From: Dyella sp. OK004
Lineage (GTDB): Bacteria; Pseudomonadota; Gammaproteobacteria; Xanthomonadales; Rhodanobacteraceae
Reading direction: 5' to 3'
NCBI RefSeq assembly: GCF_900114495.1
Contig: NZ_FOZI01000005.1
Location: forward strand, 1-64,000
DNA length: 64,000 nucleotides
Below the pieces are notes generated by a model, which was not told the DNA's origin, searched no databases, and saw only the letters and a list, made by a program, of their open reading frames with translations. This document shows, in pieces, positions 1 through 8,674 of the stretch. Within the stretch, counting starts at the first letter, position 1, and every line of letters begins with the position of its first letter. Both the position numbers and the translations under genes were made by a program.

Positions 1-345
1 GGGTTGGGGTGAGGGGTGGGTGCTCGAGACAGTGTTGCTAGTGATCACGTCGTGATCACCCGACAGCCAAAGTAGGAAGCCGCGAACCAAGGGCTTACCC
101 CTCCCCAACCCTCCCCTGTCCCACGGGACTAGCTTCGCGTCGCAAGCAGGGGAGGGAGCGAGGCGAAAGACCATCCCAACGTCTGACACTGGAAGAGGCG
201 TAGCTACGAAGCACATCGCGCTCTTCCGACCATTTCTCTTTGGTTACTTTCTCTTTGGGTCAGCAAAGAGAAAGTGACTCGGGCGCCGGCAGGCGTCCGA
301 AATGCCCGCTGCATAAGCGGCCAGGTCGCGACAACCCATCACTCA
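1..345. repeat. Composite dispersed intergenic repeat, copy A
   Basis: This stretch has no convincing gene. Positions 97-157 are the reverse complement of 28184-28244 with one mismatch in 61 bases. Positions about 165-215 match 31245-31290 and, inverted, about 28060-28105. Positions about 228-275 carry the paired TTTCTCTTTGG / AAAGAGAAAGT modules also seen inverted at 27995-28042. The order of modules is the same as in copy B, so this is one composite repeat and not chance low complexity. Confidence 0.75.
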
Positions 346-380: not shown

Positions 381-992
381 TCAGGGCGCCTTGCCTGCCT
401 TGATGTTCTGCACGATCGACAGCGACTTCGACACATGCTGTTTCGGCGTGAGGTGATCGTCGTCCGAAGAAAGCGTGGCAACGATCTGGCCGTTGCTGCC
501 GATCACGTAGGTCACGCGGGGGATAAAGGCATGGTCGATCACCGCGCCTCGCACGTCCTTCATGCCGGGCTGTGCTTCCATCGTTTTGAGGTCATAGGAG
601 GCAGCGACCTTGCCGCCGGTATCGGAGGCCACGGGGAACTTGCCGGCGCAGTAATCCGGGTCGGACGAAAACTGGTTGAGCCGTTTGATGCTATCGGCCG
701 AGACGCCGATGATGGTGGCGCCGGCGGCATCGAATTTTTCCTTCTCTGTCGCGAAGGTATGCGCTTCGATATCGCAGCCACCGGTATAGGCCGAGGGGTA
801 GAAGTAAACCACTACCGGCCCTTTCTTGAGCGCTTCCTTGAGCGAAAAGCTGAAGTCCTTTCCGGCGAGGCTGGCCTCAAGCGTGAAATCGGGAGCCGTC
901 GAACCCTGCTTGAGCGCGGCCATGGCGGGCATGGCGATCAGGAGTGCCGCCAGCGAACCAAGGGTCGCCGTTACAACAGAACGCTTTTTCAT
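381..992 (-). CDS. Exported peroxiredoxin (AhpC/TSA, thioredoxin fold)
   Basis: 203 residues. A basic start followed by a hydrophobic stretch ending in AMA (residues 1-26) is a Sec signal peptide, so the protein probably works in the periplasm reducing hydrogen or organic peroxides. The thioredoxin-fold body follows. The peroxidatic motif PxxxTxxC is complete (Pro66, Thr70, Cys73, in PSAYTGGC). A second Cys in DPDYCAGKF could be the resolving residue. Most AhpC/BCP proteins are cytoplasmic, and an exported version is less common though known in this order. It is a lone gene, convergent with repeat copy A. The electron donor is not evident nearby. Confidence 0.88.
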   Translation of the reverse strand: MKKRSVVTATLGSLAALLIAMPAMAALKQGSTAPDFTLEASLAGKDFSFSLKEALKKGPVVVYFYPSAYTGGCDIEAHTFATEKEKFDAAGATIIGVSADSIKRLNQFSSDPDYCAGKFPVASDTGGKVAASYDLKTMEAQPGMKDVRGAVIDHAFIPRVTYVIGSNGQIVATLSSDDDHLTPKQHVSKSLSIVQNIKAGKAP

Positions 993-1058
993 GCTTTATG
1001 TCCTCTGGATGGATAAACACCACGGTTACTTCTCAATGACTTGCAGGATACGGGCTGG

Positions 1059-1982
1059 CTAAGCTTGACCCTTGCTCGCGTGCGCTACGGCATTATGCGC
1101 GTGCAGGCTTTCCTGATGTTCGACCATGATCCTGAAGTCGACGATATCGCTGTCGGCATCGAGTGCTCGCTGAATGCGGCGGGCGGCGTCTTCACAAAAC
1201 ATCAGGTTGCTGCCGTTGGCGAGGGCGAAGGCCTGTTCGTCCTGGCGTTTTACCGCCGTTTGTACCGGTGTACCTAGCGATTGTTCGACGCGGTCGAGCA
1301 GGGCAATCAGGTTGAGCGGTGCGCCATCGACATAGCGTACCCACAACCGCGCAACGCTGCGTTGCGCATGGGGTGTGGCGATGATCCCTTTCTCGCTGCC
1401 TAGCCACGCCAGCACTGACGCATGGTCGACTGCGCCGGCATCGAAATCTTTTGCGAATTGTTGCTGGATAAGTTGGCGCGATAAGGCTGCCGAAGCAGGG
1501 CAGGTGGAGGAATAGACCACTTCGGTGCTCAGGCCCAACTGGAAGCCGTCGGCGCCCAGGCTGGCATCGATCGACACGGGATAGATACGCCAGCCGCTAT
1601 GTTCGCTGCGCAGCGCGGCGCGCCGGACCAGCTGATCGAAGCTTATGGTGATACGGGCGCGATCGGCCAGGCCATAGTGTGAATTAAGCAACGCACGCAT
1701 CAAGTCCTTCAGCGTCGAGGCCGTAAGCGCATGCGCGTTGAGATGCTCGTCTGCCAGCAAGTACAGGCGAGACATGTGGATGCCGCGCTGGTCGGGCCGA
1801 CTCAGGTTGATGAAGGTACCGATACGCGCGCTGCAACGCTGGATGTCGCCGTCGCCGGCATCGAAGCGCACCATCCCCTCGATGTTGTCCATGCCTACCC
1901 AGTCGAGCATGCCACCCCGATGCGGCGGCACGTCGGTCGCGACATCGGGCGTCAGTTCGCTGGTTTCGTGGATTCGTTTCAC
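1059..1982 (-). CDS. folE2: GTP cyclohydrolase FolE2 (type IB)
   Basis: 307 residues, the usual length for the family. Converts GTP to 7,8-dihydroneopterin triphosphate plus formate, the entry to folate and other pterins. Recognisable blocks are RGIHMSRLY near residue 67 and the metal-binding Cys in YSSTCPAS (Cys161). It is the last gene of a three-gene minus-strand operon, 21 bases after the flavin-reductase-like gene. FolE2 enzymes are metal-promiscuous and often back up the Zn-dependent FolE. Here the operon and the divergent carrier-protein reductase suggest a biosynthetic role instead, which is inference. No Zur-type site was recognised. Confidence 0.9.
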   Translation of the reverse strand: MKRIHETSELTPDVATDVPPHRGGMLDWVGMDNIEGMVRFDAGDGDIQRCSARIGTFINLSRPDQRGIHMSRLYLLADEHLNAHALTASTLKDLMRALLNSHYGLADRARITISFDQLVRRAALRSEHSGWRIYPVSIDASLGADGFQLGLSTEVVYSSTCPASAALSRQLIQQQFAKDFDAGAVDHASVLAWLGSEKGIIATPHAQRSVARLWVRYVDGAPLNLIALLDRVEQSLGTPVQTAVKRQDEQAFALANGSNLMFCEDAARRIQRALDADSDIVDFRIMVEHQESLHAHNAVAHASKGQA

Positions 1983-2003
1983 GCTGTATCCGCCATGCGT
2001 TGG

Positions 2004-2927
2004 CTAGACCTCTGCAAGCGGCATGTCCAGCCGGCGGCGATACGCTTGATGAAAACCGGCGGTGTGATGCAGCTGGGTGCCATCCGCCAGATGTTCGTCG
2101 GAAATGACACGGCCAAGAAAAAACATGTGCGAGCCGATCTCCTGGCTATGCACGATATCCAGCTCCTGGACGCGCAGCGCCGCTGCCACGGCGGGAATGC
2201 CAAATTCCCGCGACAGTCGCGCGGGAAACGGCAGCGCATTCCAGTCCATAAGCGGCTGCTTGTGATGCGCGCTGAGCTTGTAGACGACCGCCTTCATCGT
2301 CGCCGGGATGCTGGACAAGACAACCCGGCGCATCTCGCGCATGACCGGCATGGAAACATTGGTGCTGCGTAGCGCCAGCGAAAACAGGCCGCTCCGCTGC
2401 AGTGGGCCGATCAGATCCATCGGGAAGATGTTCTGATGGCCTGGCGCGTCGACCGAAACAAGGATGACCGGCCGTGGACACAGATACGCGATCATGAGCT
2501 GCTGCACCGCGGCAGGCTCCAGCCCGGCGTGCGGCGCGGATTGGTTTTTCTGCATGAGGCGGTTCTGCAGCCAGGTATTCCACGGGCGCCGCGGCCAGGC
2601 CAGGCAGCGGTGTTCACCCGCTGCCACGTCGTAGAGCGTGAGCGATGTGGTTTCGGTGATGACTGACGCCTTCTGCGCCAGGCGCAAAACGCCGAGTAGC
2701 CTGCCTGTGGCGCTGTCGCAGTACTCAATGACGGGACCCTGGCCGGCATCGATGCTGGTCGCAATCACCAGTGGCTTGAGTGAAGCCACAGTATGGTCAG
2801 CCGTGACATCGGCCGATTTGCCGTCCCAACGCAAGGTGGCGGTGACCATCTGTTGCGGAGGAGCAACGGCAACCGTCGACCATTGCGGCAGGGGGCGCAG
2901 GAATGGCCTTATCCAGTCCTTCCACAT
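2004..2927 (-). CDS. Flavin-reductase-like (FMN-binding split-barrel) protein
   Basis: 307 residues from the ATG at 2927, chosen because it lies one base beyond the stop of the upstream methyltransferase gene (TGACATG). An in-frame upstream start at 3068 would overlap that gene. The C-terminal 180 residues resemble the flavin reductase family (PRPVILVS, NIFPMDLIGPL, and SHMFFLGRV near the end), which binds FMN and uses NAD(P)H. The N-terminal 125 residues form an extra domain that I do not recognise. The protein may supply reduced flavin to, or itself catalyse, a redox step in a pathway with FolE2 and the reductase at 4082-7057. Substrate unknown. Confidence 0.75.
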   Translation of the reverse strand: MWKDWIRPFLRPLPQWSTVAVAPPQQMVTATLRWDGKSADVTADHTVASLKPLVIATSIDAGQGPVIEYCDSATGRLLGVLRLAQKASVITETTSLTLYDVAAGEHRCLAWPRRPWNTWLQNRLMQKNQSAPHAGLEPAAVQQLMIAYLCPRPVILVSVDAPGHQNIFPMDLIGPLQRSGLFSLALRSTNVSMPVMREMRRVVLSSIPATMKAVVYKLSAHHKQPLMDWNALPFPARLSREFGIPAVAAALRVQELDIVHSQEIGSHMFFLGRVISDEHLADGTQLHHTAGFHQAYRRRLDMPLAEV

Positions 2928-2928
2928 G

Positions 2929-3558
2929 TCAGGCGCGCCGGAACAGCAAAAACATGTAGAGATGGGTAGCCGTTCCGAAACCACGCGGAATAAGGCGCTC
3001 CAGCCGGAAGTGCGGTGCGGCTGACCGCGCCACGACACGTGGCGCAAAGCGATGGATGCCGCTTTCACTTGGGACGGCGTAGTGGCCGCTTCGCATAAGC
3101 TTCATGACGTTCGCCCGCCACCAGTGGTAACGTGCATCGCCGAGGTAGTAGGGGTTGAGCATGCTGGCCAGGAAGAAGCCGCCGTGATGGATCACGCGCG
3201 ACAACTCTTCAAACAGCGAGCTGTGATCCGCGAAATAGTTGAGCACCGCAAAGTTTGCCGTGACTCCCTGCACCTTACAGGCGAGGGGCGACGTGACCGT
3301 GACAACGGTTCCGCGGTCGATTTCGTCGCGGCAGTACTGCGCCAGGTACCCGCGCATCGCTTCCGAGGGCTCATACACGAAAGTGACATGTCCGCTGGCG
3401 GCATAGGCCTTTGCATCGATACCGGTGCCCGCACCGAAGTCGAGCATGTCGGTTCCAGCGGGCAGCAGCTCCAGCGCGATCTTCTGAAACCGGTCGCGCA
3501 CCGCCTGGTCACGCGGCGAGTTCAGAATGAACTTGTGGTACTGCTCTCCGGTGTGCAT
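2929..3558 (-). CDS. Class I SAM-dependent methyltransferase
   Basis: 209 residues. Motif I is LDFGAGTGIDAKAY near residue 39, the SAM-binding glycine loop, followed by an acidic residue in FVYEPSEAM (motif II) and the motif IV-like FAVLNYFAD. It is the first gene of the minus-strand operon, coupled to the next gene by a one-base gap, and divergent from the reductase gene at 4082 across about 520 bases. The substrate cannot be told from sequence. A small molecule made by this locus is the likeliest guess. Confidence 0.8.
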   Translation of the reverse strand: MHTGEQYHKFILNSPRDQAVRDRFQKIALELLPAGTDMLDFGAGTGIDAKAYAASGHVTFVYEPSEAMRGYLAQYCRDEIDRGTVVTVTSPLACKVQGVTANFAVLNYFADHSSLFEELSRVIHHGGFFLASMLNPYYLGDARYHWWRANVMKLMRSGHYAVPSESGIHRFAPRVVARSAAPHFRLERLIPRGFGTATHLYMFLLFRRA

Positions 3559-4081
3559 GTCGTCTTAGGCGGTCTTCTTTGGGCGCAGCCTGAAGGGGCT
3601 TGTTCGCGTGAGTGCCGACTAAGCCATGAAAGGTTGCGTCGGGTCATGCGCAGGCATGCGGACCCATGCGCGGTACGTGTTATGGCAAAGATCCGGGGTT
3701 GCTGCGGTGCGCCGGCGCGGTGTCCCGCCTTATCTAGGGTTTGACCGCATCGCTACTGAGCGATCGAGCCGATCGCAGTCGATAGCGAAGTCTGAACTTA
3801 GCAAATGACAAGTCGTCTAAAAAAACTGACCTTGCTTCCAGCTATAGATCACCACCAATCACTTGCCGTAGTCGCGGCTTCCAAGCCTCACGCGATAAGT
3901 GTGATGAGTGGCACGTTTGTCCATGTCAAACACGATGCAATTTGATCCGTCATTCACGGCGTCAGGCATAGAAAGAATGCGCTGAATTCTCCTTCGCAAA
4001 GCTTTTCTCAAGCACATATCCCAATCACATCGGACGAGGCGCCGCGCGTGAGTGCGGGGCGCTTTCAGGGAGGAATGGATC
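3559..4081. promoter_or_regulatory. Divergent control region with inverted repeat
   Basis: 523 bases between the divergent methyltransferase and reductase genes, with no convincing gene. Positions 3755-3779 hold an inverted repeat, ACTGAGCGATCG against CGATCGCAGT with a 3-base centre and one bulged A. It is well placed to be an operator shared by both transcription units. A Shine-Dalgarno AGGGAGGA at 4067-4074 precedes the ATG at 4082. No regulator gene sits beside it. Confidence 0.45.
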
Positions 4082-7057
4082 ATGGGGGCAACCACATCTA
4101 CGGTGCTTGACCATTTTCATGGTCAGGCCAATCAGCATGCTCGTGCTCTGGCTGTCATCGATCGGCAAACAACGCTGACTTACGAAGAGCTCGACAGGCA
4201 GAGCGATGCCGTTGCGGCCTACCTCATCGAGAAAGGCATACAACCTGGCGATCTGGTTCCACTGCTGGCGGATCGTTCTGCGGCACTTATCGTCGGATTG
4301 CTTGGTATCGCCAAAGCAGGTGCCGCCTATGTGCCGATTGATATGTCATACCCGGCGCAACGCAAACAATTCATCGTCGCGCAGACAGGCGCCTCGCTGG
4401 CGCTTACGACATCGAGAACCGCTTATGTCGCGGATGATTGCGAATGCGCCAGTATCCATGAACTGGTGACTGCGCCCGCATCGCCCATCTCGATTCGTCC
4501 TTCGCCGCAGCAGATTGCTTATGTCATCTTCACCTCCGGTACGACCGGTGTGCCGAAAGGCGTGGTGATTGAGCATCAGTCGCTGGAAAACATCGTCGCC
4601 TGGCACAATCGCGAGTTCTCGGTGACGCCGGACAGCCGGCTTACCTTGATGGCCAAGATCGGTTTCGACGTGTCGCAGTGGGAAATATGGTCCGCGCTTT
4701 GCGCTGGCGCGCCACTGTATTTACTGGACGAAGAGACACGCATTGATACGTCCGCACTCGTCGCTTTCTATGGGCGTAACGGCATTACCCACGCGTTCGT
4801 ACCTACGGTGATGGTGGCCGATGTCGTTGCCGTCACCTCACGTGTCCAGACGGCACTACAGTATTTGTTCACCGCTGGCGAAAAGCTCAGTCCCGTCGAT
4901 ACCGATTGCATTACTTATGCACTCATCGACTATTACGGGCCAACCGAGGCCACCATTTTCGCGACCGTTCATCGCGTTGTCAGTGCGACTTGCAAGTCGC
5001 CTTCTTCGATCGGCGTGCCCGTTGCCGGTGCGGACGTAGTGATTCTCGACGATGCGCTGGCGGATGTCGCCGTTGGCGAAGTGGGGGAGTTGTGTATCGC
5101 TGGGCCGGGTCTCGCGAGAGGCTATCTGAACGACGAAGCGCTGACGAACAAGAAGTTCGTCACGCGTGACAAAACGCGGCTTTATCGCAGTGGGGACCTT
5201 GCCCGATTTTTGCCTGACGGAAGCCTGCAGTTCCTCGGGCGCCGCGACGAGCAGATCAAGATCCGTGGCAACCGCGTTGAGCTTGGCGAAATCGAGGCGC
5301 AGCTTTTGCTGCTTCCTCAGATCAAGAAAGCCTCCGTCATTGTTACGACGCCAGACGATCCGGCGCGAAAAGAGATCGCGGCCTTTCTGGTGGTCAACGA
5401 CGATCAAGTGCCGGTGGATGGCCTGGTCGTTTCGATAAAGAACGCACTGAAGGCTATGCTTCCTGATTACATGCTGCCGGCGCATTACCTGTTTGTCAGT
5501 GCTATCCCGCTCACCGCAAACGGCAAAATCGACAAGCAGGCGCTGCTTCAACTCCATGCCGAAAAACTGGTCGATACACCGGCGGAAGCGGTGGTCTATC
5601 ACGGTCGGCAGCTGATGCTTGCAGGCATCTTTCGTGAACTGTTGGGTCATGGCGATTTTGGGCCGGATGACAGCTTTTTCGATATCGGCGGGCACTCCTT
5701 GTTGGCTGCCGAATTGATTGCGGCTATCTCAGACAAGCTTGGCGTCAAGGCATACATTCGCGACATCTATGAATACCCGAGCATCGCGACATTGACTGCC
5801 GAGCTGGAACGCAGAGAAGGCGCGGCGGCGCCGGTCATTGACGGGGAGCCCATCCGCGCCTTGCTGGATGATGTCTATTTGCCGGCGGATGTTTCTTTCA
5901 AGCAGGGTTTTCACACCGGGCAGATCACGACGCCAAGGCAGATTCTGCTCACCGGTGTGACGGGGTTTGTCGGTATTCACCTCTTGCAAGAATTGCTTGG
6001 CACCACGGACGCAACCATTCATTGCCCGATCCGATCGCACGACCAGGAACACGCGCACGCCAGGCTGGTGGAGTCCTTGAGCAAATACGACGTGCGACTG
6101 GATCAGGCGGACGTCGGCCGTGTACGGGTTTATGCCGCCGATCTGGCGGAGCCGGAGTTTGGCCTCGCATCGCACGACTATCGTTATCTGTGCAACACGG
6201 TCGATATCATCTATCACTCGGCCAGTGCCGTGAATTTTATCCAACCGTATTCCTACATGCGCAAGGACAACGTGCAGGGATTGCGAGAGATCGTTGGCTT
6301 TGCCGCAACCGGAAAACTCAAGCCCCTGGCGCTGCTTTCCACGATCTCCGTGTATAGCTGGGGGCATCTGCATACCCATAAGCGCGTCATGCGTGAAGAT
6401 GACGACATCGATCAGAATCTCCCCGCTGTGATTACGGACATCGGCTACGTTCGCAGCAAGTGGGTGATGGAGAAAATCGCCGACCTGGCGGCCAATCACG
6501 GTCTTCCGCTGATGACCTTTCGGCTTGGTTACGCCACCTTTCACAGCAAAACGGGTGTTTGCGCGAGTTATCAATGGTGGTCGCGGCTGGTCAAGACATG
6601 TATTGCGAATGGCACGGTGCCCGATCTTCATGATCTGCGCGAGGGCTTGACCACTGTCGATTACATGGTGCGTGCCATTGCCCACATTTCACGCAATCCG
6701 GAAGCGCTCGGCAAAAAATTCAACCTGATCCATTCCGACAGCAACAACCTTACGCTGCTGACTTTTTTCAAGAAGCTTGAATCGCATTTTGGCTTTCACT
6801 TCAAAGCGATTCCTTATGCGGACTGGCGAGGGCAGTGGGAGCACGATGCGGGAGCTCCACTCTATCCATTGCTGAGCCTGTTCAAGGACGTGATGTGCGA
6901 CGGCCAGTCCACAGTGGAGCTTTATCAGAACACCTATCAATGGGATTGCAGCAATGTTACCGAGTTCCTGCAGGGCAGCGGGATTGCCGAGCCCACCTTT
7001 GATAGGGAGGCGTTGCAGCGCTATCTGGAGCGTTCAATCGGGCTGACCGTTGCTTAA
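4082..7057 (+). CDS. Adenylation-carrier-thioester reductase protein (single-module NRPS-like)
   Basis: 991 residues from the ATG at 4082, which has AGGGAGGA 7 bases upstream. An in-frame GTG at 4052 lacks such a site. Order: adenylation domain about 20-500 with FTSGTTGVPKG near residue 150, DYYGPTEAT and YRSGDLARF; carrier domain with GGHSL and phosphopantetheine Ser539; reductase domain from about 610 with GVTGFVG at 625 (NADPH) and catalytic YVRSK at 789. There is no condensation domain. The protein should activate one carboxylic acid, hold it as a thioester and release it as aldehyde or alcohol. A hand alignment to GrsA gives pocket residues D-V-W-A-F-A-Y-I-F; the leading Asp suggests an alpha-amino acid. 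The substrate is not predictable. Confidence 0.9.
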   Translation: MGATTSTVLDHFHGQANQHARALAVIDRQTTLTYEELDRQSDAVAAYLIEKGIQPGDLVPLLADRSAALIVGLLGIAKAGAAYVPIDMSYPAQRKQFIVAQTGASLALTTSRTAYVADDCECASIHELVTAPASPISIRPSPQQIAYVIFTSGTTGVPKGVVIEHQSLENIVAWHNREFSVTPDSRLTLMAKIGFDVSQWEIWSALCAGAPLYLLDEETRIDTSALVAFYGRNGITHAFVPTVMVADVVAVTSRVQTALQYLFTAGEKLSPVDTDCITYALIDYYGPTEATIFATVHRVVSATCKSPSSIGVPVAGADVVILDDALADVAVGEVGELCIAGPGLARGYLNDEALTNKKFVTRDKTRLYRSGDLARFLPDGSLQFLGRRDEQIKIRGNRVELGEIEAQLLLLPQIKKASVIVTTPDDPARKEIAAFLVVNDDQVPVDGLVVSIKNALKAMLPDYMLPAHYLFVSAIPLTANGKIDKQALLQLHAEKLVDTPAEAVVYHGRQLMLAGIFRELLGHGDFGPDDSFFDIGGHSLLAAELIAAISDKLGVKAYIRDIYEYPSIATLTAELERREGAAAPVIDGEPIRALLDDVYLPADVSFKQGFHTGQITTPRQILLTGVTGFVGIHLLQELLGTTDATIHCPIRSHDQEHAHARLVESLSKYDVRLDQADVGRVRVYAADLAEPEFGLASHDYRYLCNTVDIIYHSASAVNFIQPYSYMRKDNVQGLREIVGFAATGKLKPLALLSTISVYSWGHLHTHKRVMREDDDIDQNLPAVITDIGYVRSKWVMEKIADLAANHGLPLMTFRLGYATFHSKTGVCASYQWWSRLVKTCIANGTVPDLHDLREGLTTVDYMVRAIAHISRNPEALGKKFNLIHSDSNNLTLLTFFKKLESHFGFHFKAIPYADWRGQWEHDAGAPLYPLLSLFKDVMCDGQSTVELYQNTYQWDCSNVTEFLQGSGIAEPTFDREALQRYLERSIGLTVA

Positions 7058-7453
7058 GTCCACGTTTCCCACGCGCCGCGCGGGCTTGATACGGCGGTTG
7101 GTGGGAGGACGTGCCTTTGCGCTCACGAGGGTCAATCGCTCGTGCGAGACCAGCATCTGTGCACCGGCGATCTCCGAGACGGGCCGGATGGGGTGTGGAA
7201 GTCTGTACGCACTTTGCTTGTCGCCAAACGGCAAAGTTTGTGCGCTGATCAACAGATCGAGCATTTGGTTGGAATGCTTCATCGACGATACACACCTTTG
7301 ACAAACAAAGTGTGTACTGAGGTGAGGGCGTACTACCTACATCTCTGCCGCGTATGCGGCGAGATCGACCCCGATCCACGCACACATAAATTTGCGGTGC
7401 GATGAAGATACTTAGCAACCGCCACGCCCGGTGGCGATTATCGAGAGCCATGT
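7058..7453. promoter_or_regulatory. Intergenic region with two inverted repeats, leader of the beta-barrel gene
   Basis: 396 bases without a gene. Two inverted repeats are visible: ACTTTGC (7211-7217) with GCAAAGT (7231-7237), and ACACACCTTTG (7290-7300) with CAAAGTGTGT (7306-7315). Both share the core CTTTG/CAAAG, so they may be related operators or a terminator for the upstream gene. Positions about 7339-7402 recur in degenerate form at 11288-11349 ahead of the decayed copy of the downstream gene. Confidence 0.4.
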
Positions 7454-8674
7454 ATGCATATTCGCAACCGTAGTTTCGGCGCGCCGGGGGCCAGCGCCCA
7501 GCACGATCGGCGCATCAGGTGCGTGCTCGTCATCGGGGCCGCGTTGGCGGTCGCCACGCCCTTCTCGGCGGTGATCGCGCAGAGCCAGCCTTTCGCCGCC
7601 TCCGGTTCGCCCAATCAAATGGCGGTTGCCACCGCCTTACAATCATTGCCGACGCGGAGCCCGCTGCGGACGTCCCTGCAAAGCCAGTGGCCCGCCGATC
7701 CGGGTAATGCACGCGCTGGATACGACCGTCTGTCCGGCGAGATCCACGCCGCGGTTGGCACGCAGATGATCGAGGACAGCCATTTCGCCCGCGACGCGAC
7801 CTTTGCAAGGCTTTCCTGCGCGGCCGGCTGTGCCGACGGCAGCCATCTGTGGGCACAAGCCGCCGGCGGCTGGGGCCACCAGGGAAGCAACGGCAATGCC
7901 GGCTCGCTCTCGCGCGACATGGGCGGCGTGATGGGCGGCATCGACACGCTGATCTTCGACAATCGTTGGCGCGTGGGCCTGTTGTTTGGCTACGACCATT
8001 CGTCGCTCACCGCTGACAGCCGCTACTCCACCGCCAGCACCCACGACACCACTTATGGCGCCTATGCGGGCACGCAGTGGGGCGAACTCACCTTCAAACT
8101 AGGCGCGGCTTTTGTGCGTCACGATATTGCCACCGACCGGTTCGTGCAGGTTCCCGGACTGGCCGCGGCCCAGCTCGGTACCGACTACTACGGGCATACC
8201 GCCCAGGTCTTCGGCGAACTCGGCTATGGCATGCGCTGGGGCGGCAACACATGGCAGCCCTACCTGCAGCTGGCCCAGGTGCGGCAGAACTTCGAATCGT
8301 TCCGTGAATCCGGCGGCCCGGCAGCGCTCGTGGGCCGCAGCCATGAAGCCGACGTGACCTATTCCACCCTGGGTGTGCACTTCGTTGCTGACAGCTTCCA
8401 ACTCGGCACGATGGCGGTGAACGCGCGCGCCGGCATCGGCTGGCGCCATGCCATGGGCGATGTGGACGTCAATCACGCGCTGGCGTTCCGCGCTGGCGGC
8501 AATGCTTATAACCTGCGCGGCCTGGTTGTGAGTCGAAATGTCGGCGTGTTAGACGCCGGCCTGGATTTCACTCTGGCGCCCGATGCGGTGTTTTCGCTGA
8601 GCTATACCGGCCAGGCCGGCAACCAACACACCGTGGATCAGGACCTGACTGCGGCTATGTCGGTGCGCTTCTGA
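7454..8674 (+). CDS. Outer-membrane autotransporter-type beta-barrel protein
   Basis: 406 residues. An unusually long basic start (about 23 residues) precedes a hydrophobic segment and cleavage near VIAQS, as in autotransporter-type signals. Residues 45-130 are a short passenger-like region with a CAAGC pair. From about 135 the protein is a run of alternating amphipathic strands (WAQAAGGWG, WRVGLLFGYDH, FGELGYGMRW) ending in AMSVRF, with the C-terminal Phe expected of BAM substrates. This matches the autotransporter barrel domain, PF03797 in character. With almost no passenger it is more likely a barrel porin or adhesin remnant than a toxin exporter. A decayed partial copy lies at 11288-11450. 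Confidence 0.8.
   Translation: MHIRNRSFGAPGASAQHDRRIRCVLVIGAALAVATPFSAVIAQSQPFAASGSPNQMAVATALQSLPTRSPLRTSLQSQWPADPGNARAGYDRLSGEIHAAVGTQMIEDSHFARDATFARLSCAAGCADGSHLWAQAAGGWGHQGSNGNAGSLSRDMGGVMGGIDTLIFDNRWRVGLLFGYDHSSLTADSRYSTASTHDTTYGAYAGTQWGELTFKLGAAFVRHDIATDRFVQVPGLAAAQLGTDYYGHTAQVFGELGYGMRWGGNTWQPYLQLAQVRQNFESFRESGGPAALVGRSHEADVTYSTLGVHFVADSFQLGTMAVNARAGIGWRHAMGDVDVNHALAFRAGGNAYNLRGLVVSRNVGVLDAGLDFTLAPDAVFSLSYTGQAGNQHTVDQDLTAAMSVRF

Follow-up and report, generated by a model that had tools for sequence, protein, structure and literature searches.

Two adjoining gene units in Dyella: a solo adenylation-thiolation-reductase gene and a FolE2-containing operon that probably belongs to a radical-SAM cluster

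INTRODUCTION

FolE2 is a back-up enzyme for zinc starvation. The minimal nonribosomal peptide synthetase (NRPS) of the ATRed type from Xenorhabdus indica was proposed to give a pyrazine from two phenylalaninals, and its single gene with adenylation (A), thiolation (T), and reductase (R) domains alone gave the product in Escherichia coli (PMC7586950). In Photorhabdus, pepteridine is the product of a pteridine pathway with NRPS-like machinery (PMC5384830). Herein, we analysed a 64,000-nucleotide stretch of DNA from Dyella sp. OK004 (the window, contig NZ_FOZI01000005.1), in which the gene of a stand-alone adenylation-thiolation-thioester reductase (ATR) lies beside genes for a methyltransferase (MT), a flavin-reductase-like protein (Flav), FolE2, and a peroxiredoxin (Prx). 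An earlier note, made from the letters of this stretch, had read ATR, MT, Flav, and FolE2 as a single locus joining a carrier-protein reductase to a pterin pathway. We consider it probable that two independent units adjoin here, namely a solo ATR gene and a Prx-FolE2-Flav-MT operon, the latter a displaced satellite of a conserved ~28-kb cluster that likely makes a modified surface polysaccharide, because the distributions of ATR and of the operon are separate and MT-Flav tracks a radical S-adenosylmethionine (SAM) cluster.

The first 64 kb of contig C2, from C2:1 on, make up the window; the genome, here G000, has 4.96 Mb in 8 contigs. Other genomes, contigs, and loci are labelled G, C, and L, respectively.

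RESULTS

ATR does not travel with its neighbours

A contig scan gave 21 ATR loci. Two of these (L075 and L076; 34% and 38% identity) were other synthetases and were excluded, and the remaining 19 together with the copy in G025 (L077) made 20 homologous loci, hosted by Lysobacter, Serratia, Burkholderia, Halomonadaceae, Microbulbifer, Pseudomonas, Providencia, Amycolatopsis, and Nocardia. FolE2, Flav, MT, and FolE1 were absent from all 20 loci at E ≤ 1e-3, four of which had flanks shortened by contig ends (L056, L058, L073, and L074). Homologues of the reductase consistently lack these neighbours, a result that the earlier note itself had named as refuting its proposal; the conserved co-occurrence with folE2 and the methyltransferase that it suggested looking for was seen in none of the loci, and the single-locus reading is not upheld. 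No neighbour family recurred in more than four ATR loci, mostly within a single genus, in a rough gene-by-gene clustering in which L071 was poorly covered by gene calling.

Within the window's own family, ATR was found in 2 of 233 genomes (E ≤ 1e-200, best three candidates scored per genome). The other genome, G025, carries ATR at C1:5406235 and MT-Flav at C1:3826852, about 1.58 Mb apart. Flav has 60 places besides the one in the window, and wide neighbourhoods were taken for 49 of them, leaving 11 aside; no ATR orthologue was present in any of the 49, the synthetase in L019 being a different one (33%). Judged by its neighbourhoods, ATR is a solo enzyme outside the MT-Flav-FolE2 group.

MT-Flav and the extra FolE2 track a radical-SAM cluster

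Flav was detected in 60 of the 233 family genomes, the window genome included; G573 is counted with a fragment and G531 with a shortened match. In a sample of 368 further genomes of the class, Flav was absent. MT adjoined Flav in 49/49 neighbourhoods, and FolE2 lay within the MT-Flav stretch in one (L122). The marker of the radical-SAM cluster, rSAM1, was found in 91 of the 233 genomes, and all 60 Flav genomes fell among these 91. The blind-draw probability of this nesting was 6e-33, a figure that is in reality much weaker given kinship, and the nesting held in all nine Flav-bearing genera. Physical linkage was frequent as well: the distance between Flav and rSAM1 (n = 60) was at most 20 kb in 32 genomes and at most 100 kb in a further 2, while 6 had the two far apart on the same contig and 20 on different contigs. 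In 25 of the 49 MT-Flav stretches, rSAM1 was present with the whole or part of the block ABC transporter - HprK-like kinase / rSAM1 - NTP_transf_5 ... glycosyltransferase family 4 (GT4) - rSAM2.

The same association was looser for FolE2. Two FolE2 copies occurred in 7 of 59 family genomes (G000, G011, G015, G018, G039, G042, and G045), and rSAM1 was present in six of these seven vs 15 of the 52 others (Fisher P 0.006, without kinship correction). A second FolE2 match in G031 (98 residues, 32% identity) was excluded; its inclusion gives eight two-copy genomes, still six with rSAM1. In all five two-copy rSAM1 genomes besides G000, the extra FolE2 shared a contig with rSAM1, at a distance of 20.9-26.2 kb. 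FolE2 was the end gene of the cluster in six relatives from four genera (G042, G522, G018, G015, G045, and G039), and in G522, FolE2 and Flav were convergent and ~240 bp apart. These results show that MT-Flav and, more loosely, the extra FolE2 track the radical-SAM cluster.

In 16 of the 49 loci, a peroxiredoxin gene was located no more than 10 kb from MT-Flav. In L117 and L119, Prx was immediately downstream of Flav, and Prx-Flav-MT-ABC-HprK occupied a single strand in the same order as in the window minus FolE2.

A conserved cluster of about 28 kb

The cluster measured about 28 kb (25-31 kb). Contig C1 of the Dyella genome and all six relatives share an ABC transporter, an HprK-like kinase, rSAM1, NTP_transf_5, GT4, and rSAM2, as well as a methyltransferase, an amidohydrolase, a second methyltransferase, a 273-amino acid (aa) protein, an extracytoplasmic function (ECF) sigma factor, and a subtilase. 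The order in the core was ABC, HprK-like kinase / rSAM1, NTP_transf_5 / GT4s, rSAM2, methyltransferase, amidohydrolase, methyltransferase, and that at the far end was 273-aa protein, ECF sigma, subtilase, and, where present, FolE2. In G000, the cluster runs from C1:163 to the subtilase at C1:27432 without FolE2; FolE2-Flav-MT opens C2 instead.

Genes for Wzz, a polymerase-like protein, a Wzx-like flippase, DegT, and FdtA lay within the cluster in C1 and five of the six relatives, and GNAT and hexapeptide-transferase genes in fewer members. The Pfam matches comprised ABC_tran, B12-binding with Radical_SAM (twice), NTP_transf_5, GT4, Amidohydro_1, Wzz, GT2, Polysacc_synt, DegT, Acetyltransf_6, Hexapep, FdtA, Cytochrom_C, ECF sigma, and Peptidase_S8; Hpr_kinase_C was below the Pfam cut-off in both C1 and L015. 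For the flippase, chain-length regulator, and dTDP-sugar enzymes, PF01943, PF02706, and PF01041 were found on C1, and PF05523 in G042 with a counterpart on C1. The candidate Wzy polymerase (384-386 aa) had no Pfam match. When ten C1 proteins were compared with NCBIfam, no model exceeded its cut-off in the tables shown; the nearest names below cut-off were HprK-related kinases, rSAM_ladder/BchE/HpnJ-like radical-SAM proteins, and an EpsE-like glycosyltransferase. The amidohydrolase keeps an HxH motif and weakly resembles guanine-deaminase-like and other deaminases.

The presence of Wzx and Wzz points to an exported polymer, and FdtA, DegT, and the hexapeptide transferase presumably represent the pathway to a dTDP-3-acylamino-3,6-dideoxyhexose. 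A surface-polysaccharide role is most likely for the cluster, as judged from its gene content. Literature searches returned no published account of this combination, an absence that is weak evidence, and the cluster apparently is undescribed. The combination differs from the one that the earlier note had drawn.

The window FolE2 and Flav

The Dyella genome has three GTP cyclohydrolases, namely FolE1 on C7, one FolE2 on C6, and that of the window, and the first two rule out the window copy as the sole folate entry. The window FolE2 scored 289.8 bits against NF010200 (cut-off 215 bits). Aligned to the solved FolE2 3d2o, it keeps the equivalents of C147, E201, E216, and H246 (positions counted by hand), which we take to be active-site or ligand residues of FolE2. 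It has the family features of a GTP cyclohydrolase IB and is a putative maker of dihydroneopterin triphosphate from GTP. In the tree, the C6 copy clustered with the main copies of the relatives. Among positions invariant in 30 main copies from relatives, the window copy was altered at 19 of 163 and the C6 copy at 1 of 164. The nonsynonymous rate (dN) of the window copy was 0.16-0.22 vs a synonymous rate (dS) of 1.1-1.4, indicating amino-acid constraint.

Flav matched PF01613 with 33.6 bits (cut-off 27 bits) over residues 152-292 of the translated stretch. Its AlphaFold model reached a pLDDT of 91.4 (37 sequences in the alignment), and the top Foldseek matches were FAD/FMN reductases and related FMN-binding proteins, the best being SgcE6 of the C-1027 producer (E 4.6e-10, 171 columns, probability 1.00). 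The N-terminal half was likewise beta-rich. According to the model, Flav has the split-barrel fold of the flavin-reductase-like family, with putative flavin binding or reduction.

The earlier note had set FolE2, Flav, and MT together and apart from the ordinary folate entry. This is supported in part, given the two other GTP cyclohydrolases, the cluster-linked extra FolE2 in six relatives, and the confinement of MT-Flav to rSAM1 genomes (60/60). However, the three genes probably belong with the radical-SAM cluster rather than with the reductase.

Domains, pocket, and spread of ATR

ATR carries AMP-binding, PP-binding, and NAD_binding_4 (thioester-reductase) domains, and no condensation or thioesterase domain was found with Pfam or NCBIfam. 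Its motifs DIGGHS, TGVTGFVG, and YVRSK are intact; we take the first to hold the carrier serine and the other two to be the NAD(P)-binding and YxxxK motifs. Assignment as a carboxylic acid reductase was rejected, since NF041592 scored 159.7 bits against a cut-off of 1300 bits.

The ten-residue adenylation pocket was DVWFFAYIFK, with residues positioned by motif counting and given in GrsA numbering. Asp235 and Phe299 were invariant in all 20 homologues, and the other positions varied little (Val/Ile, Trp/Leu in three Halomonadaceae, Phe/Tyr, Ala/Gly, Tyr/Cys in two, Ile/Val, and Phe/Tyr). The pocket is almost fixed across a range from Lysobacter to Nocardia, and one substrate throughout the family would be the natural reading. 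The pocket is uncharged, contains many aromatic residues, and keeps the Asp for the alpha-amino group, a hint of an amino acid that is small or hydrophobic. Its sequence differs from the code for Phe. A literature search for the pocket code returned no paper.

In the tree, ATR grouped with the G025 copy and next with that of L. enzymogenes. The gene has a G+C content of 56% and a third-position G+C (GC3) of 0.65 vs a GC3 of 0.72-0.76 in the neighbouring genes. A homologue with 52% identity is located on a plasmid record of P. aeruginosa (CP109682.1:30328-33270), which fits the horizontal spread of a solo enzyme. ATR is patchily distributed and has probably spread horizontally.

Two side observations were made among the homologous loci. 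In the Halomonadaceae loci L060, L063, and L065, one gene family follows ATR in 3/3; in L060, the sole member checked, Pfam identifies it as a phosphopantetheinyl transferase. In Pseudomonas agarici, the ATR gene is split into two frames in its assembly (L073:9875-12999).

Gene layout of the window

The features examined are collected in Table 1. The four open reading frames (ORFs) of ATR, MT, Flav, and FolE2 lie where the earlier note had placed them, and their tight spacing and divergent arrangement were confirmed. MT, Flav, and FolE2 are separated by 1 and 21 nt on the minus strand, which fits an operon, and are divergent from ATR across 523 bp. The Prx gene, which the earlier note did not mention, is on the same strand downstream of FolE2.

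Table 1. Coordinates of the genes and other features discussed, in window positions
Feature	Position	Strand	Basis
ATR, stand-alone adenylation-thiolation-thioester reductase (ATRed-type minimal NRPS), 991 aa	4082-7057	+	Pfam PF00501/PF00550/PF07993; TIGR01733, TIGR01746 above cut-off
MT, class I SAM-dependent methyltransferase, 209 aa, Flav partner	2929-3558	-	PF13489/PF08241
Flav, flavin-reductase-like split-barrel protein (predicted fold) with extra N-terminal beta-rich half	2004-2927	-	PF01613
FolE2, extra fast-evolving zinc-independent GTP cyclohydrolase (putative)	1059-1982	-	PF02649; NF010200 above cut-off
Prx, AhpC/TSA peroxiredoxin, recurring companion of MT-Flav and the cluster	381-992	-	PF00578
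Gap between the divergent MT and ATR genes; holds a single 17-bp inverted repeat (3760-3776), unconserved	3559-4081	.	Repeat core absent upstream of other ATR and MT genes
Dispersed-repeat copy (140 genomic copies); contig begins nearby	230-278	+	Genome-wide repeat count

The inverted repeat in the gap has 7-bp arms and a 3-bp loop, and we estimated that ~0.4 such repeats are expected by chance at this gap length. Its core was missing upstream of 7/7 other ATR genes examined and 49/49 other MT genes, and the repeat, which the earlier note had called shared, was dismissed as a shared operator because of this lack of conservation. No sigma-70-like promoter was found at 3400-4300.

The dispersed repeat near the contig start is ~50 nt long, and its copies in G000 (82 forward and 58 reverse at up to 3 mismatches, with none in the control) lie on C1-C3 and C5-C8, several times paired in inverted orientation ~340-380 nt apart. 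It looks like an element of the repetitive extragenic palindrome (REP) or miniature inverted-repeat transposable element (MITE) type. Joining of C1 to C2 through their common end repeat was dismissed, as 140 copies make a shared end uninformative.

DISCUSSION

Weighing the two-unit reading

The reading that we prefer, in which ATR and the operon are independent units, may be set out as follows. ATR would adenylate one fixed amino acid, load it onto its own carrier domain, and release it, reduced with NAD(P)H, as an amino-aldehyde or alcohol; aldehydes of this kind are able to form pyrazines by dimerisation. The cluster would most likely assemble and export a surface polysaccharide that contains a dTDP-3-amino-sugar and is modified by radical-SAM and methyl-transfer reactions. 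FolE2 might make dihydroneopterin triphosphate from GTP for a pterin that the cluster uses; Flav would be a flavin or pterin redox partner, and MT would be a methylating enzyme. This pterin role of FolE2, Flav, and MT is the weakest step of the explanation.

Several observations weigh against this reading. MT-Flav is more than 100 kb from rSAM1 or on another contig in 26 of the 60 Flav genomes and is absent from 31 of the 91 rSAM1 genomes. FolE2 is optional, 15 of the 21 rSAM1 genomes in the 59-genome sample being single-copy, and G011 has two FolE2 copies and no rSAM1 match. The window FolE2 forms a long branch of unsure placement and is by identity nearest to the non-cluster copy of G042 (76%) rather than to its cluster copy (73%). 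Apart from FolE2, the cluster had no recognised pterin gene, and no step after GTP cyclohydrolysis was identified. C1 and C2 both start near the 140-copy repeat, and their adjacency is not established. For ATR, a methyltransferase-family gene lies ~0.5 kb after the gene in L. enzymogenes, without a match to MT, and both ATR-bearing family genomes also have Flav, a coincidence with a chance of ~7%. Finally, the polysaccharide genes from Wzz to FdtA were not found inside the G045 cluster, which weakens the polysaccharide reading; it slightly lowered our confidence in the whole and slightly raised that in the two alternatives without a glycan or without a cluster role for FolE2.

A possible but doubtful alternative is that FolE2 is a spare zinc-independent folate enzyme at a rearrangement-prone site, with no role in the cluster. 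The back-up function of FolE2 under zinc starvation would agree with this, as would its optional occurrence, the lack of a further recognised pterin gene, and the position of the extra copy in G042 after the ECF sigma factor and subtilase gene. However, G000 has another FolE2 and a FolE1 besides, six genomes from four genera share the syntenic position of the extra copy, and the window copy is under amino-acid constraint inside a Prx-Flav-MT operon.

It is unlikely that FolE2-Flav-MT-Prx is a portable module giving a methylated or reduced pterin to the cluster of HprK-like kinase, B12-radical-SAM enzymes, and amidohydrolase. This pterin, which the guanine-deaminase-like amidohydrolase may deaminate, would then be either a cofactor of the radical-SAM or methyl chemistry or a group attached to the exported surface polysaccharide.

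We give about as little credence to an action of Flav-MT apart from the glycan, for example in peptide maturation. The HprK-like and NTP_transf_5 genes are reminiscent of peptide-modification cassettes, HprK_rel_B and HprK_rel_A were the best NCBIfam matches, weak and below cut-off, and the G045 cluster is without polysaccharide genes. In G001, the cluster has a peptidase-C39 ABC exporter and an HlyD protein as neighbours (L015:736-4364), a hint of an exported peptide in that strain, but this exporter matched at 100% only in its source locus and at 27-30% elsewhere. A coarse transitive clustering with mixed families gave no clear conserved small ORF, as a precursor peptide, among the linked loci; the conserved short ORFs there look antisense to main genes. 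Polysaccharide genes, moreover, flank in C1 and the other five relatives.

A lineage-specific hybrid, in which ATR and FolE2-Flav-MT are united in G000 alone for a pterin-linked aldehyde or amine, is very improbable: the genes are close and divergent, FolE2 retains its catalytic residues, pepteridine shows that a different NRPS-like-pteridine hybrid exists, and Flav accompanies both ATR genomes of the family, but none of the 20 homologous ATR loci has these neighbours, the radical-SAM cluster accounts for MT-Flav and the extra FolE2, no other pterin enzyme was found by Pfam in the six ORFs scanned (381-8674), and the inverted repeat is unconserved.

With two adjoining units as the preferred reading, the tempting merging of neighbours into one pathway is corrected, and the likelier unit is a conserved ~28-kb cluster that links cobalamin radical-SAM enzymes and an HprK-like kinase to genes that in most members are for polysaccharide export; an extra GTP cyclohydrolase is an optional addition. 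If it is true that the pterin step serves the cluster, pterin chemistry would be unexpectedly tied to a surface polymer. The solo ATR family, with its almost fixed pocket, offers a clean target in the search for one widely shared amino-aldehyde or pyrazine.

Comparison with known systems

The closest described kind of enzyme is the ATRed of X. indica, which, like the window ATR, has A-T-R in one gene (PMC7586950). The X. indica enzyme uses Phe (PMC7586950), whereas the window ATR has the pocket DVWFFAYIFK, which is kept in its own broad family. A-T-R enzymes also belong to the Pvf/Mgo/Ham diazeniumdiolate-type systems, for which a linked diiron N-oxygenase would be expected; in the ATR loci, no neighbour family recurred more than four times. 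The window also resembles the pepteridine locus of Photorhabdus in having a GTP cyclohydrolase near NRPS-like machinery (PMC5384830). Unlike the pepteridine locus, with a T-C (thiolation-condensation) protein fused to an E2-like subunit and genes for a pterin synthase and a reductase (PMC5384830), the window has none of these in the six ORFs scanned, and its pairing of NRPS-like protein and GTP cyclohydrolase is not conserved (0/20 ATR loci with FolE2 or FolE1).

As a GTP cyclohydrolase IB, the window FolE2 exceeds the family cut-offs and keeps the ligand residues like other members, but unlike an ordinary FolE2, it is an extra, divergent copy in an apparent operon with Flav, MT, and Prx. The C1 cluster and five of the six relatives, with FdtA, DegT, Wzz, and a flippase, are like Wzx-Wzz clusters for a dTDP-3-amino-3,6-dideoxyhexose made with FdtA, DegT, and a hexapeptide transferase. 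What sets them apart from those clusters is the HprK-like kinase, the two B12-radical-SAM enzymes, NTP_transf_5, the amidohydrolase, and the optional FolE2, Flav, and MT.

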